From: Occultella kanbiaonis
Lineage (GTDB): Bacteria > Actinomycetota > Actinomycetes > Actinomycetales > Beutenbergiaceae
Direction of reading: 5' to 3'
DNA length: 64,000 bases
NCBI RefSeq assembly: GCF_009708215.1
Contig: NZ_CP046175.1
Coordinates: forward strand, 2,108,001-2,172,000
Position numbers and translations under genes: made by a program. Each line of letters opens with the position of its first letter. Position 1 is the first letter of the stretch. Below are positions 10,461 to 28,990 of the stretch, piece after piece. The notes below the pieces were generated by a model. It made no database searches. It was not told the origin of the DNA and was given only the letters and a program-made list of their open reading frames with translations.

Positions 10461-11168
10461 TCAGATCGAGCGGAGCACACTCACCACACGGCCGAGGATC
10501 TGCGCCTCGTTCCCGTCGATCGGTGAGAACGCCGGGTTGGCCGGCATCAGCCAGACCTGCGAAGCGGAGCGCTTGAGCGTCTTCACGGTCGCCTCGCCGT
10601 CGATCATCGCGGCGACGATCTCGCCGTTCTCAGCGACGTTCTGCTGCCGCACGACCACCCAGTCGCCGTCGCAGATCGCGGCGTCGATCATCGACTCGCC
10701 GACCACCTTGAGCAGGAACAGATCGCCTTCGCCGACCAACTGGCGGGGGAGCGGGAACACGTCCTCCACGGCCTGCTCTGCCAGGATCGGGCCACCGGCC
10801 GCGATCCGGCCGACGACCGGCACATACGCGGCACCGGGATCGATGCCCTCCCGGTCCGGCGCCTCGAAGATGTCGATGTCGCCGCGGACGGACTGGGCGT
10901 CATCCGGCGCGATGACCTCGATCGCGCGGGTGGAGATCGGGTCCCGGCGCAGGTACCCCTTCTGTTCGAGCAGGTTGAGCTGGTACTTCACCGAGGATGG
11001 GCTCGCCAGCCCCACGGCCGCACCGATCTCTCGCATGGTGGGCGGGTAGCCCTTGGCCTCGATGCTCGACCGGATGGAGCCCATGATCTGCCGCTGACGC
11101 ACGCTGAGGCCGTCGGGGCCGGGGGTGTCCTTCGGGTCGGGGGACTTGGAGCGGCTGGATCGGGTCAC
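10461..11168 (-). CDS. lexA: SOS repressor LexA
   Basis: Represses DNA-damage genes and cleaves itself when bound to RecA filaments. The protein has 235 residues. The N-terminal winged-helix domain runs over about 20-85 ([29 protein letters not shown]). The cleavage site is A124-G125 in RIAAGG. The serine protease dyad is S159 (GESM) and K196 (TVKTL). The GTG start follows a strong AGGAGGAG site. The divergent region carries two LexA boxes, so it is probably self-regulated together with the LysM gene. Confidence 0.96.
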
Positions 11169-11289: not shown

Positions 11290-11343
11290 ACTGGCGTGTC
11301 GACATCGGAATCGCCGCGTGCTACCTTCAGTACAGCCGTTCGA

Positions 11344-11357
11344 CGAACAATCGTTCT
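11344..11357. promoter_or_regulatory. LexA box B (LysM gene promoter)
   Basis: CGAACAATCGTTCT matches the LexA operator at 9 of 10 fixed positions. It lies 26 nt upstream of the LysM gene start, between its candidate -10 hexamers (TACCTT, TACAGC at 11322-11336) and its ribosome site. Confidence 0.75.
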
Positions 11358-11383
11358 ACCCGCGACGACCGAGGAGACTCCCG

Positions 11384-19091: not shown

Positions 19092-20018
19092 ATGACGAAG
19101 GACCCACGAGAGTTGTACAGCCGCAGCGACGGCCCGGTGGACCTGCGCGACGGCGAGGTCCCGGTGCTGGTGCACGCCCTGCAGGGCGCCATGGACGCCG
19201 GCCACGCGGGTCGGCTGATGGCCCGTCACCTGACCCGCAAGCTTCCGAGTGAGCGACTGATCGACTTCGATGTGGACGCGCTCCTGGACTACCGTTCTCG
19301 CCGGCCGTCGATGGTGTTCGACGACGGCGCCTGGACGTCCTACGAGGACCCCGAGCTCGTGGTCGACCTGATCCGCGACGACGAGGGCGCCCCGGTGCTC
19401 TTGCTGCACGGGCTCGAGCCGGACCTGCAGTGGGAACGGTTCGTCGCGGCCGTGCGCACCATCATCGAGGACTTCGGCGTGACCACCACGATCGGAGTGC
19501 ACGGCGTACCGATGGGCGTGCCGCACACCCGCCCGATGACGGTCACGGCGCACGCGACCCGGGCGGACCTGATCGGGGAGCACCCGAACTACTTCTCGAA
19601 CGTCCAGGTGCCGGGCACCGTCTCGGCACTGCTCGAGTTCCGGCTCGGCCAGGAGGGGCGCGACGCGCTCGGCTACGCGGTCAACGTGCCGCACTACCTG
19701 GCCCAGATGGAGTACCCGCAGGCGGCCGCGGAACTGGTCCGGCAGATCTCGCGCACCACGGGGCTGAGCCTGCCCGTGGGTGACCTCGAGGCTGCCGGGG
19801 CGAAGGTTCGCGCTGACATCGACCGGCAGGTGTCCGGTTCGGAGGAGGTCGGCGCCGTGGTGCACGCGCTGGAGACCCAGTTCGACTCGTTCCTCAGTGC
19901 GAACGGTGAACCGGGGCGCGGATCGCTGACCGCGCCGGCGGAGGAACTGCCCAGTGCCGACGAACTCGGCGCGCAGTTCGAGGCCTACCTGGCCGGCAAG
20001 GACGGCGACTCCGACTGA
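19092..20018 (+). CDS. PAC2 family protein
   Basis: A 308-residue cytoplasmic protein of the PAC2 (proteasome assembly chaperone 2-like) family, which is widespread in actinobacteria with unproven function. Signs are the ALQGAMDAGHAG start, LLLHGLEPDLQWERF, GVHGVPMGVPHTRP and VPHYLAQMEYPQAA motifs. An ATG at 19092 has GGAGAG 9 nt upstream and is preferred to the GTG at 19083. It diverges from helD across a 182-bp gap in which I see no clear operator. Confidence 0.85.
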   Translation: MTKDPRELYSRSDGPVDLRDGEVPVLVHALQGAMDAGHAGRLMARHLTRKLPSERLIDFDVDALLDYRSRRPSMVFDDGAWTSYEDPELVVDLIRDDEGAPVLLLHGLEPDLQWERFVAAVRTIIEDFGVTTTIGVHGVPMGVPHTRPMTVTAHATRADLIGEHPNYFSNVQVPGTVSALLEFRLGQEGRDALGYAVNVPHYLAQMEYPQAAAELVRQISRTTGLSLPVGDLEAAGAKVRADIDRQVSGSEEVGAVVHALETQFDSFLSANGEPGRGSLTAPAEELPSADELGAQFEAYLAGKDGDSD

Positions 20019-20550: not shown

Positions 20551-21492
20551 TCAGGACGAGTGGTCGACGGCGGCGCTCGCCGGCGTAGGCCCGTCGCCGC
20601 CGGCCGTGGTCGCCACGGCGGCCGGGTCCGATCCGAGCGTCGGCGGCGGGTCCGTGAACGGGCGCGAGGTGCCCATGAACACCTCGAACGCCGGGCCGTG
20701 GACCAGGCTCGCGGGCGCGGGCAGGGTCCGCACCCGCCGGTCCAGGTGGGCCAGGGGCAGCGGTTCGGCGGAGCCGACCAGCACGACGTTGCCGTACCGG
20801 CGGCCCTTCAGGACGCCCGGCTCCGCGATCACGGCGGTGTACTCGAACACCTCGGCCACGGTTGCCGCCTCCCGGCGGGCCAGCGGCAGCGGTGGATGGT
20901 CGGCGGTGTTCGCGAGGTAGAGCCCACCGGGCCCGAGGACCCTGGCCACCTCGCGGGTGAACTCCAGGGTGCGTAGGTGTGCCGGTACCGCCCGGTCCGC
21001 GAACGCGTCCCGGATCACGGCGTCGTAGCTGTCCTCCCGGGCCGCCGTCGTGGTGCGCCGGGCATCGTCGACGCGGATCCGGAGCCGCGGCGCGCGGGGC
21101 AGATCGAACCAGTCGCGCACGTACTGGGCGAGGAGGGCATCGACTTCGACGGCGAGCTGGCGCGAGTCCGGCCAGGTCGCGTCGACGGCCCGGGCAAGGG
21201 CGCAGCCGGCCGCACCGAGGTGCAGGGCCCGGACACCGCCGCCCTCGGGCAGTGACTCCTCCAGGGCGGCGAGCATCTGCTGCATGTACTCGAACATCAG
21301 CCGACGCGGATCGGCGAGATCGAGGTGGGAGCTCTCGACCCCGTCGAGCAGGACCAGCACACCGTCCGGATCGGCACTGTCGGTGGTCAGTTCTACAGTC
21401 GACAGCGAGGTTGGAACGGGGCCGGTCGGCCACGGTGACCGCTGCGATCGTTGCGGAACGGCGCGGGAGCGCGGTGAGCGGCGGCGGGCCAT
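20551..21492 (-). CDS. spermidine synthase-like methyltransferase-fold protein
   Basis: A 313-residue protein with the Rossmann core of the spermidine synthase family: VRALHLGAAGCALARAV (nucleotide site), LAVEVDALLAQYVRDWF, RLRIRVDDAR and YDAVIRDAFAD, where the family usually has an aspartate pair. Actinobacterial members often lack polyamine activity and are of unknown role. The C-terminus is a 40-residue low-complexity tail. TACGGT lies 6 nt before the ATG, suggesting a leaderless mRNA, and the perfect LexA box sits across its -35 region, so DNA damage may control it. Confidence 0.75.
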   Translation of the reverse strand: MARRRSPRSRAVPQRSQRSPWPTGPVPTSLSTVELTTDSADPDGVLVLLDGVESSHLDLADPRRLMFEYMQQMLAALEESLPEGGGVRALHLGAAGCALARAVDATWPDSRQLAVEVDALLAQYVRDWFDLPRAPRLRIRVDDARRTTTAAREDSYDAVIRDAFADRAVPAHLRTLEFTREVARVLGPGGLYLANTADHPPLPLARREAATVAEVFEYTAVIAEPGVLKGRRYGNVVLVGSAEPLPLAHLDRRVRTLPAPASLVHGPAFEVFMGTSRPFTDPPPTLGSDPAAVATTAGGDGPTPASAAVDHSS

Positions 21493-21498
21493 GGACAG

Positions 21499-21504
21499 AC
21501 CGTA
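21499..21504 (-). promoter_or_regulatory. -10 element of a probable leaderless promoter (spermidine-synthase-like gene)
   Basis: TACGGT on the minus strand, 6 nt before the ATG at 21492. The LexA box at 21518-21533 covers the matching -35 position. Confidence 0.45.
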
Positions 21505-21508
21505 CCTC

Positions 21509-21537
21509 TTGACAGGTTCGAACACGTGTTCGATACT
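21509..21537 (+). promoter_or_regulatory. SOS promoter of the HEPN-dinB operon
   Basis: A consensus -35 TTGACA (21509-21514), a 17-bp spacer and -10 GATACT (21532-21537). The LexA box lies inside the spacer, so repressor and polymerase cannot bind together. This is the best vegetative-type promoter in the window. Confidence 0.8.
21518..21533. promoter_or_regulatory. perfect LexA box
   Basis: TCGAACACGTGTTCGA is a perfect 16-bp palindrome matching CGAAC-N4-GTTCG at all fixed positions. It lies between the -35 and -10 of the HEPN-dinB promoter and upstream of the divergent spermidine-synthase-like gene. Confidence 0.9.
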
Positions 21538-21610
21538 GGAGGCAGGTCGAACACCGGCTCCCGAAGGCCCGGCGGTCGATCGAAGGCGGAACAGGACGGA
21601 GGCAGGCGAG

Positions 21611-22036
21611 ATGGCGGCATATACGAGTCCCGATCAGCTCCTGCGTCGCGCCCAGGCCGAGCTCGACGAGGTCGGGGCCGGTACCGGCGCGCGCTCGGTG
21701 TTCCTGCATGCCCACATGGCCGGGCTCCGGGCGGCGGCCGCGGTCGTCGCCGTCGGGTCGGGAGCCGTGCCGGTGCCGGCCAGGCGCCGGCGGGCCGTGC
21801 GCAGCGTCTGGGAGCAACTCGCCGAGGCGGGCGAGCAGTGGCAGCCTTGGGCTGTGTACTTCGCAAGCGGCGCGCCGATCCGGGCGGCCATCGACTCCGA
21901 CCGGGACGTCGCGCTGAGCGTCGAGCGTGCCCAGGAGACGTTCGAGGCGGCCACCGAGTTCCTCGGGCTCGCCGGCGAGCATGTGCTGCGGGCGTCCGCG
22001 GCGCGGGACCAGCGCGTGTCCGCGTTGGCGTCATGA
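21611..22036 (+). CDS. SAV_6107-type HEPN domain protein
   Basis: A 141-residue all-helical protein of the SAV_6107 HEPN family, often found next to dinB in actinobacteria. The N-terminal helix (SPDQLLRRAQAELDE) and VFLHAHMAGLRAAAAVVA are typical, and the C-terminal half is helix-rich (VERAQETFEAATEF). No clear catalytic R-x4-6-H ribonuclease motif is seen. It is the first gene of an operon under a LexA-controlled promoter and ends 7 bp before dinB, so it probably acts in translesion synthesis or damage response. Confidence 0.75.
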   Translation: MAAYTSPDQLLRRAQAELDEVGAGTGARSVFLHAHMAGLRAAAAVVAVGSGAVPVPARRRRAVRSVWEQLAEAGEQWQPWAVYFASGAPIRAAIDSDRDVALSVERAQETFEAATEFLGLAGEHVLRASAARDQRVSALAS

Positions 22037-22043
22037 GTTCGGT

Positions 22044-23291
22044 ATGAGCCGGGGTCCGCGCGGCGTCGGCGCGAATCGCGACTGGGGCAGCGACGACTCG
22101 CGGACCCCGATCCTGCACGTGGACATGGACGCCTTCTTCGCCGCGGTCGAGCTGATCGATCGCCCGGAACTGCGCGGCCGGCCGGTCATCGTCGGCGGCC
22201 AGCACCGCGGCGTGGTGCTCTCGGCAACCTACGAGGCGCGCGCCGCCGGGGTCCACTCGGCGATGCCGATGGCGCAGGCACGCGCGTTGTGCCCGCAGGC
22301 GATCGTGATCCAGCCCGAGCACGGGCGCTACCGCGAGGTGTCCCAGTCGGTGATGCGGATCCTCGGCGAGGTCACGCCCGTGATCGAACCGTTGAGCATC
22401 GACGAGGCGTTCCTCGACGTCTCCGGCGCGCGGCGCCGGATCGGGCCGCCGCGACTGATCGCCGAGCAGATCCGAGAGCGGATCCGCACGGAGCTCAAGG
22501 TGGTCGCGTCGGTCGGTGTCGCCTCGACGAAGTTCGTCGCGAAGCTCGCGTCCAGCCACGCCAAGCCGGACGGTCTGTTGCTCATCCCGGACGAGGCGAG
22601 TGTGCCGTTCCTGCACTCGCTGCCGGTCGGCGCACTCTGGGGGGTCGGGGAGCGCACCCAGGCGAACCTGGCCCGGCTCGCGATCCACACGGTCGCCGAC
22701 CTCGCCAACACCCCGGTGGGGACGCTGAACCGGCTGCTCGGCAACTCCGCCGGCGGGCGGCTGTTCGACCTGTCCTGGGGGCGTGATCCACGGCCGGTGC
22801 AGCCCGTCCGTCAGGAGAAGTCCATCGGTCACGAGCAGACCTTCGCGATCAACCTCACCGGGCGGGCGGCGATGGCCGCTGTCCTGCTCGACCAGGCACA
22901 CCGGTGTGCGGCCCGGCTGCGTGCGGGTGATCTGGTCACTGCCGGGGTCTCCATCAAGGTGCGGTTCGCGGACTTCACCACCCTGACCCGGTCGCGTGCC
23001 CTGGAGGCTCCGACGGACGTCGCGCACGAGCTGTACCAGGCGGCGCGGTCGCTGCTCGCGGGCGTGGACGTGCCGGCCGGAGGGGTGCGGCTCCTGGGCG
23101 TCCGGTGCGACGCGCTCAGCGATTCCGCGACCACGGTGGTGCAGGCTCGACTCGACGATCCGGGGGAGGAACGACGCGAGGCGGAGCGTGCGATGGACGC
23201 CGTCCGGGCCCGATATGGAGTGAATGCGCTCACAGCGGGATCACTGCTGTCCGTTCCGGCTACCGCGAACCGCTCAGGGGACTTAAACTAA
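22044..23291 (+). CDS. dinB: DNA polymerase IV
   Basis: A Y-family translesion polymerase of 415 residues. Catalytic motifs are ILHVDMDAFFAAVE (first Asp), SYEAR-like SATYEARAAGV, and SIDEAFLDV (second Asp-Glu). Then come the HhH thumb (VGALWGVGERTQANLARL) and the little finger domain (QEKSIGHEQTF). It lacks a C-terminal QL-x-LF clamp-binding end; the tail reads VPATANRSGDLN. Second gene of the LexA-controlled operon. Confidence 0.94.
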   Translation: MSRGPRGVGANRDWGSDDSRTPILHVDMDAFFAAVELIDRPELRGRPVIVGGQHRGVVLSATYEARAAGVHSAMPMAQARALCPQAIVIQPEHGRYREVSQSVMRILGEVTPVIEPLSIDEAFLDVSGARRRIGPPRLIAEQIRERIRTELKVVASVGVASTKFVAKLASSHAKPDGLLLIPDEASVPFLHSLPVGALWGVGERTQANLARLAIHTVADLANTPVGTLNRLLGNSAGGRLFDLSWGRDPRPVQPVRQEKSIGHEQTFAINLTGRAAMAAVLLDQAHRCAARLRAGDLVTAGVSIKVRFADFTTLTRSRALEAPTDVAHELYQAARSLLAGVDVPAGGVRLLGVRCDALSDSATTVVQARLDDPGEERREAERAMDAVRARYGVNALTAGSLLSVPATANRSGDLN

Positions 23292-23341: not shown

Positions 23342-23725
23342 ATGCCTCTCTCTGAGTACGAGCAACGCGTGCTGGAGCAGATGGAGCAGCAACTGCGCTC
23401 CGACGACCCCAAGCTCGCGGATGCGATCTCCGGCACGCCGACGCGCCGACCCTTGCACGTGGTGCTCGGCACACTCGTGGCGCTGGCCGGGCTGGGCATG
23501 CTCGTTGGTGGCGTGGCCAGCCAGTTCATTCCGCTCGGCATCGCTGGTTTCCTCGCCATGTTCGGTGGCGTCATGTGGGCGATCTCGCGGCCCCGTGTGG
23601 GGAGCCCGGCACCGACAGGTGAAGCTGGCAAGGCCACGAACGTGCGTCGGATGAAGCCACGGAAGTCTTCGTTCATGACGCGCCTTGAGGAGCGTTGGGA
23701 CCGTCGCCGCGGCGACGGTCAGTAG
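23342..23725 (+). CDS. DUF3040 membrane protein
   Basis: A 127-residue protein with the DUF3040 signature: N-terminal PLSEYEQRVLEQMEQQLRSDDP, then two membrane helices at about 38-60 and 64-82 (VVLGTLVALAGLGMLVGGVA, IPLGIAGFLAMFGGVMWAI) and a basic C-terminal tail (MTRLEERWDRRRGD). Common in actinobacteria, often near the dcw cluster; function unknown. GGGAGGTG ribosome site. The last codons lie in a perfect 22-bp palindrome. Confidence 0.88.
   Translation: MPLSEYEQRVLEQMEQQLRSDDPKLADAISGTPTRRPLHVVLGTLVALAGLGMLVGGVASQFIPLGIAGFLAMFGGVMWAISRPRVGSPAPTGEAGKATNVRRMKPRKSSFMTRLEERWDRRRGDGQ
23699..23720. other. perfect 22-bp palindrome at the 3' end of the DUF3040 gene
   Basis: Two 11-bp arms (GACCGTCGCCG and its complement) with no loop, ending 5 bp before the end of the gene. 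It could be a protein-binding site or, with an opened loop, a terminator. Confidence 0.5.
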
Positions 23726-28888: not shown

Positions 28889-28990
28889 CGCACCACCGCC
28901 CCGCGAGGTCTCTCACCGCGACTCTGACGCACTTCCCCGGCGCCAGAGCAGGCGGGGGGAGTCCTGGTCGGGCGGCGGAGGGCCTCCCGA

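Follow-up and report, generated by a model that had tools for sequence, protein, structure and literature searches.

The core of the SOS response is established: after DNA damage, RecA stimulates the cleavage of LexA and the response is induced. In Actinobacteria, damage-induced mutation has been studied chiefly in mycobacteria, where the mutasome comprises DnaE2, ImuA' and ImuB. In the part of PMC3710099 available to us, the table entry for the HEPN_SAV_6107 family (PF18726) gives an actinobacterial distribution and no gene association. In the literature searched, mostly non-subscription, we found no biochemical or genetic results on the family and, among the matches listed, no report linking it to translesion synthesis (TLS) or to LexA.

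In the 64,000-nucleotide stretch of the Occultella kanbiaonis genome analyzed here (hereafter, the window), a gene encoding a HEPN_SAV_6107 protein is separated by 7 nt from dinB, the gene for DNA polymerase IV (Pol IV; Table 1). The HEPN protein scores 62.8 bits against PF18726 (curated cut-off, 27.2). The dinB product scores 390.6 bits against PRK03858, above the cut-off of 367, contains both IMS and IMS_C, and has its catalytic acids readable in the motifs HVDMDAFF and SIDEAF (P0001). The original prediction that a SAV_6107-type HEPN protein and Pol IV are encoded in one operon is thus borne out by the profile matches and the short gap. The nearest named relatives are Occultella species, whose HEPN proteins are 97, 97 and 86% identical to that of the window. 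Elsewhere in the window, positions 28890-28985, located 5' of the division gene cluster, match the mraW cis-regulatory RNA (RF01746) barely above the threshold. We consider it reasonably probable that the locus is a single LexA-repressed HEPN-dinB operon, with the HEPN protein acting as a non-catalytic accessory of TLS and the divergent spermidine-synthase-like gene lying outside the conserved unit.

Table 1. Features of the HEPN-dinB locus of Occultella kanbiaonis (window positions)
Feature	Coordinates	Strand	Evidence or remark
Spermidine-synthase-like protein, 313 aa, divergent neighbor	20551..21492	-	NCBIfam MFS_SpdSyn, E 3.2e-26
-10 element TACGGT of the divergent gene, leaderless type	21499..21504	-	6 nt before ATG 21492
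-35 element TTGACA, HEPN-dinB promoter	21509..21514	+	Promoter scan; TTGACN 3-4 nt 5' of the box in 38/38 box-bearing relatives
LexA operator (SOS box) TCGAACACGTGTTCGA, perfect 16-bp palindrome	21518..21533		Inside the promoter spacer
-10 element GATACT	21532..21537	+	Shares the final two bases of the LexA box
HEPN_SAV_6107 family protein, 141 aa	21611..22036	+	PF18726, E 4.5e-17
DNA polymerase IV (dinB), 415 aa	22044..23291	+	IMS, E 4.4e-51; NCBIfam PRK03858
DUF3040 protein, conserved next gene of the locus	23342..23725	+	PF11239, E 1.8e-26; synteny

The predicted promoter TTGACA-17-GATACT, with its 17-nt spacer, is the sole promoter-like site between positions 20000 and 23800, where 0.1 would be expected by chance. 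The 16-mer in the spacer has one perfect match in the 64-kb window; the single other match at up to three mismatches has three of them (0.21 expected in all), and the pattern TCGAACN4GTTCGA occurs in 3 places only in the whole 5.65-Mb genome. A box of the same type, TCGAACGGCTGTTCGT, is located upstream of recA in this genome; lexA, in the same window (10923-11111, minus strand), has the box ACGAACAATCGTTCTA, two letters off; and a dnaE2-type gene of the same genome begins directly at the box TCGAACACATGTTCGC (L156 1501-3013; G000:C1:2318759 on). Because the same box type recurs at recA, lexA and dnaE2, the box in the HEPN-dinB promoter spacer is, judged by its sequence, of this organism's own LexA operator type. 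The anticipated perfect 16-bp LexA palindrome in the TTGACA-17-GATACT spacer is confirmed by its coordinates, its rarity genome-wide and the recA, lexA and dnaE2 boxes. Two neighboring genes were observed at these other boxes. The two-mismatch box at 11343-11358 lies between lexA and a divergent plus-strand gene starting near 11383, and genes placed like this next to lexA are frequently SOS division inhibitors; at the box-started dnaE2 locus (L156), a 174-aa gene is located on the opposite strand.

Matches to PF18726 were detected in 26 of the 39 near relatives, 124 of the 297 genomes of the order and 53 of the 398 genomes sampled over the phylum, and are nearly universal in two families, f21 (78 of 81 genomes) and f20 (150 of 161). 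Ten genomes were searched in genus g34, presumably Mycobacterium, and none had a match. We read the surroundings of 158 loci that remained after the removal of seven weak matches below the family cut-off (G026, G078, G100, G127, G209, G213 and G253), along with 48 further f20 loci; this covers 31 of the 78 matches in f21 and 55 of the 150 in f20. Family f20 is referred to as Mycobacteriaceae-like and f19/g33 as Streptomyces-like, the family and genus names being inferred. Twenty-two Streptomyces-like loci and four f12 loci were counted separately. Four loci just above the cut-off (G075, G141, G158 and G356) had none of the neighbors and no box, and were excluded from the box count.

Six gene arrangements were found. 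Arrangement A, that of the window, consists of the divergent spermidine-synthase-like gene, the box, and HEPN-dinB-DUF3040. In arrangement B, the box is followed by DUF6504-HEPN-DnaE2-like, often with a CmoM-like methyltransferase and dinB behind; in C, by HEPN-methyltransferase-dinB-DUF3040; and in D, found in f21, by HEPN-ImuA'-ImuB, with DnaE2 downstream in both loci read far enough. Arrangement E, of f20, comprises a divergent GNAT gene, the box and HEPN-DUF3040-mraZ-mraW, without a polymerase, and arrangement F, of the Streptomyces-like f19/g33, comprises HEPN-methyltransferase-DUF3040, without box or polymerase. Among representatives of the partner families, ImuA' scores 175 bits against NF058630 (cut-off, 65), ImuB matches IMS (E 3.5e-15), DUF6504 matches its profile (E 6.8e-21), and the CmoM-like methyltransferase matches PRK11036 (E 2.4e-30) below the model cut-off. 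The DnaE2-like protein of the DUF6504-HEPN operons (L062 7378-11415) scores 613 bits against PRK05672; because this is far under the DnaE2 model cut-off of 939, these proteins may form a separate DnaE clade.

Several features of these loci were noted in passing. The SOS DnaE2-like operons regularly begin with DUF6504 (L062 6392-6844 and other DUF6504-HEPN-dnaE2 loci). The CmoM-like methyltransferase, possibly a member of the HEPN pathway, separates HEPN from dinB in a number of families (L090 7414-8145; L094 7626-8381) and remains beside HEPN in the f19/g33 loci, from which dinB has disappeared. In the f12 loci L074, L253, L254 and L255, the gene order is kept, HEPN is strongly diverged, and no box is found at up to one mismatch. 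A plasmid search for HEPN returned one record only, an unannotated, chromosome-sized one of Nonomuraea, in which two boxes with one mismatch each precede the match by 480-520 bp; no TLS gene was found in this record by the queries used.

The LexA box is a regular companion of the HEPN gene. Allowing up to one deviation in 12 letters and looking as far as 1.3 kb upstream, we detected a box in 121 of 132 loci; a cut contig accounts for one of the 11 misses. The regions upstream contain 129 such sites in 170,391 bp, compared with 18 in 893,050 bp elsewhere in the same loci, a 37.6-fold enrichment, and 89 perfect boxes against 5 in the control DNA. The further f20 loci keep the box in 33 of 48 cases, nearly all without a polymerase alongside. 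At up to one mismatch, the box is missing from all four f12 loci, although HEPN-dinB is present there, and from all 22 f19/g33 loci. Eleven of these 22 have a two-mismatch site resembling CCGAAC....GATCGA at about -270 to -290, which is perhaps a decayed box. The available portion of the main text of the LexA study in S. venezuelae contains no HEPN or spermidine term, which agrees with the absence of the box from f19/g33; the study describes pvnz_37140, a hypothetical protein preceding a plasmid Pol IV under an SOS box (PMC9380542).

Outside f20 and f19/g33, HEPN is followed within 3 kb by a same-strand TLS gene in 119 of 129 loci; the partner is dinB in 45 of these, a DnaE2-like gene in 45 and ImuA'-ImuB in 29. 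An adjacent polymerase is rare elsewhere (1 of 55 f20 loci and 0 of 22 f19/g33 loci). Where the distance could be read, 35 of 39 dinB and 25 of 35 dnaE2 genes start between -20 and +60 nt from the HEPN stop, often with the 4-nt overlap ATGA. By open-frame length, no HEPN-polymerase fusions occur in the loci read. The presence of HEPN does not correlate with a C-terminal Q..L (clamp-type) stretch of DinB, which is found with and without HEPN. The predicted linkage of HEPN to dinB in relatives thus holds, but the partners are TLS polymerases in general (dinB, DnaE2-like and ImuA'-ImuB), not dinB alone.

In the window's own family, f1, 7 of the 24 genomes (the one studied here included) have no PF18726 match. 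In five of these seven, the box lies directly between the spermidine-synthase-like gene and dinB, which stands directly at it; in another (L135), dinB keeps its box, and in the seventh no box was found. HEPN is dispensable for the box-dinB arrangement. Because these relatives retain the box between the divergent gene and dinB, the box tracks the polymerase operon, with HEPN or without it.

We inferred a tree of 140 HEPN domains from 102 columns, in which many forks are unresolved. Mapped on this tree, the six arrangements require 9 changes, compared with 76.8 when the labels are shuffled. The 29 HEPN domains of the f21 ImuA'-ImuB loci form one clade (support 99/83), which is joined by a clade of three HEPN-methyltransferase-dinB rows (support 100/96). 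The linkage is therefore largely inherited, with a few partner changes, and the topology points to at least one change of partner between TLS cassettes, within the SOS TLS setting. In one f20 genome, G769, HEPN-methyltransferase-dinB is still present, as would be seen if the rest of the f20 loci had lost dinB and kept HEPN with its box.

That the context largely follows the HEPN tree is also what would be seen if the linkage were merely inherited synteny, with HEPN belonging to a cell-division (dcw-adjacent) locus and acting as a checkpoint for division or the wall in the SOS response, and the polymerases being old neighbors only. The f20 loci, where HEPN sits beside DUF3040-mraZ-mraW without a polymerase and the box is mostly kept (33 of 48), and the Streptomyces-like loci, which retain HEPN-methyltransferase-DUF3040, agree with such a role. 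Yet HEPN is joined to two unrelated polymerase types: it heads ImuA'-ImuB operons in 29 of the 31 f21 loci examined, where the two read out to 7 kb showed neither mraZ nor DUF3040, and it is located between DUF6504 and a DnaE2-like gene in several Micrococcales families. We regard a division checkpoint as rather improbable. A further observation speaks for the TLS reading: in the part of PMC5055667 available to us, C. glutamicum cg2381 is a LexA-regulon gene annotated as of unknown function, induced by ciprofloxacin with an M value of 3.86, equal to that of recA, and mraZ is cg2378, three locus tags away. C. glutamicum has a PF18726 profile match, and cg2381 is likely its HEPN gene because small f20 genomes show the order HEPN-DUF3040-mraZ.

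Returning to TLS as the favored setting of the operon, the question of its extent concerns the divergent gene. This gene matches fused MFS/spermidine synthases (MFS_SpdSyn) over their enzymatic part, and its product has no Pfam family match at E 0.001. Its -10 element was correctly placed 6 nt before the start (TACGGT 21499-21504, ATG 21492, minus strand), and the LexA box does cover its -35 position in this genome. The original prediction drew from this overlap that one box may control both directions. Beyond the overlap itself, this would agree with the retention of the divergent placement, the box being present in relatives at 23 of 25 loci that pair the spermidine-synthase-like gene with a neighboring dinB. 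A similar leaderless -10 was found, with a lenient pattern, in 32 of 38 arrangement-A loci, which were picked for having a box (the f12 loci and G510, which has no box, were excluded; one of the 38, G522, is without dinB). In all 38 of these loci, 3-4 nt separate the box from the preceding TTGACN of the HEPN(-dinB) promoter, whereas the box and the divergent -10 lie anywhere from 13 to 102 nt apart, so that the box reaches the divergent -35 in 8 of 32. In G003, another species of this genus, the gap measures 31 nt, versus 13 in the window. When a 172-aa gene intervenes between the divergent gene and dinB (G007, L135), the box adjoins dinB, and where the spermidine-synthase-like gene lacks a dinB neighbor, no box is found within 1.4 kb in any of 8 loci. 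The spacing drift, the separation in L135 and the 0 of 8 speak against shared LexA control as a selected feature, and we reject it as such. The box is fixed to the HEPN-dinB promoter and drifts relative to the divergent one, which leaves the two-way control unsupported as a conserved function, and it is highly improbable that one LexA box purposely serves HEPN-dinB and the spermidine-synthase-like gene alike. The divergent gene probably shares only the space and lies outside the regulated unit; incidental overlap and repression by the box in this particular genome is possible.

The AlphaFold model of the window HEPN protein, based on a 58-row alignment (pLDDT 92.5, pTM 0.84), has the all-helical HEPN fold. 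In the structure comparison, the best match is 2hsb (Z 13.4, rmsd 3.0, 117 aligned), followed by 4nqf, 1wol and the HEPN domain of sacsin; HEPN entries make up most of the top rows, and the first clearly unrelated one, the actin-binding alpha-catenin, has a Z of 8.5. The Foldseek E-values are weak (best, 0.086), and searching the solved structures by sequence yielded nothing significant (top entry 2hsb, E 0.032). Among 158 rows, W67 is invariant, and R40, F117, W80, F84 and R91 are nearly so. An R-x4-H pair in helix 2 is conserved as well (R30 in 82% and H35 in 87% of the 158, judged within the family only).

This pair bears on whether the HEPN protein could be an RNA-cutting or growth-arrest effector, induced in the SOS response together with the polymerases and holding the cell while damage is bypassed. 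SOS regulons often include arrest genes. In the part of PMC3710099 available to us, the majority of HEPN families are RNases or toxins, but the SAV_6107 family is listed as lacking the RNase motif. Moreover, H35 is the sole histidine conserved above 60% of the 158 rows, the window protein has V at position 30 with the R of the pair shifted (R28), and no nucleotidyltransferase is an immediate neighbor in the window. We find an effector of this kind unlikely. A non-catalytic accessory role is preferred because the family is listed without the RNase motif, and because of the pattern of conserved residues.

The predicted control of the HEPN-dinB operon by LexA is supported, and the operon could work as follows. 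LexA bound to the palindrome would cover the spacer between -35 and -10 and block RNA polymerase; upon DNA damage, RecA-stimulated cleavage of LexA would free the promoter, and the HEPN protein and Pol IV would be produced together. The divergent spermidine-synthase-like gene would run from its own promoter. Because the same HEPN gene is found in three kinds of SOS translesion cassettes across Actinomycetes, we infer that its product is most likely an SOS-induced accessory factor of TLS. Biochemically, it might serve the translesion polymerase as an adaptor or regulator, or control how this polymerase gains access to the damaged template. The co-location with TLS polymerases under LexA suggests that the protein assists damage-induced DNA copying and has been overlooked in this role, and a HEPN protein traveling with SOS translesion polymerases appears to be a broad pattern for which we found no earlier description.

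A wider proposal, which we hold as plausible but short of probable, would make HEPN_SAV_6107 a subunit common to the SOS translesion complexes of actinobacteria and interchangeable among them. It would then be the fourth component of the mutasome, next to ImuA', ImuB and DnaE2, and a partner of Pol IV elsewhere, while being absent from the presumed Mycobacterium. If this is true, a LexA-controlled HEPN protein would be a missing component of the translesion cassettes outside the presumed Mycobacterium, and the HEPN fold would gain a role at stalled replication. In C. glutamicum, the likely HEPN ortholog would be one already known as damage-induced.

Compared with the known systems, the locus resembles SOS-regulated dinB operons, in which Pol IV is likewise located behind a LexA operator with the box in the -35/-10 spacer, and differs from them in having HEPN_SAV_6107 as the first gene. 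With the HEPN-MNT (HepT-MntA) toxin-antitoxin systems, it has the HEPN fold in common (7ae8, Z 10.4), but the window gene has a LexA promoter and a polymerase partner, and its neighbors encode the spermidine-synthase-like protein, the IMS polymerase and DUF3040, with no nucleotidyltransferase among them. The mycobacterial ImuA'-ImuB-DnaE2 mutasome is likewise a LexA-controlled TLS cassette, and the f21 relatives also carry ImuA', ImuB and DnaE2, with the difference that HEPN precedes ImuA' in 29 of the 31 loci examined; the window operon itself has dinB and no ImuA' or ImuB. Finally, the window protein is, by profile and fold, a member of HEPN_SAV_6107 (PF18726; the HEPN-M SAV_6107 family of PMC3710099), and to the description of the family in the available part of that source, the present analysis adds predicted LexA control and linkage to TLS.
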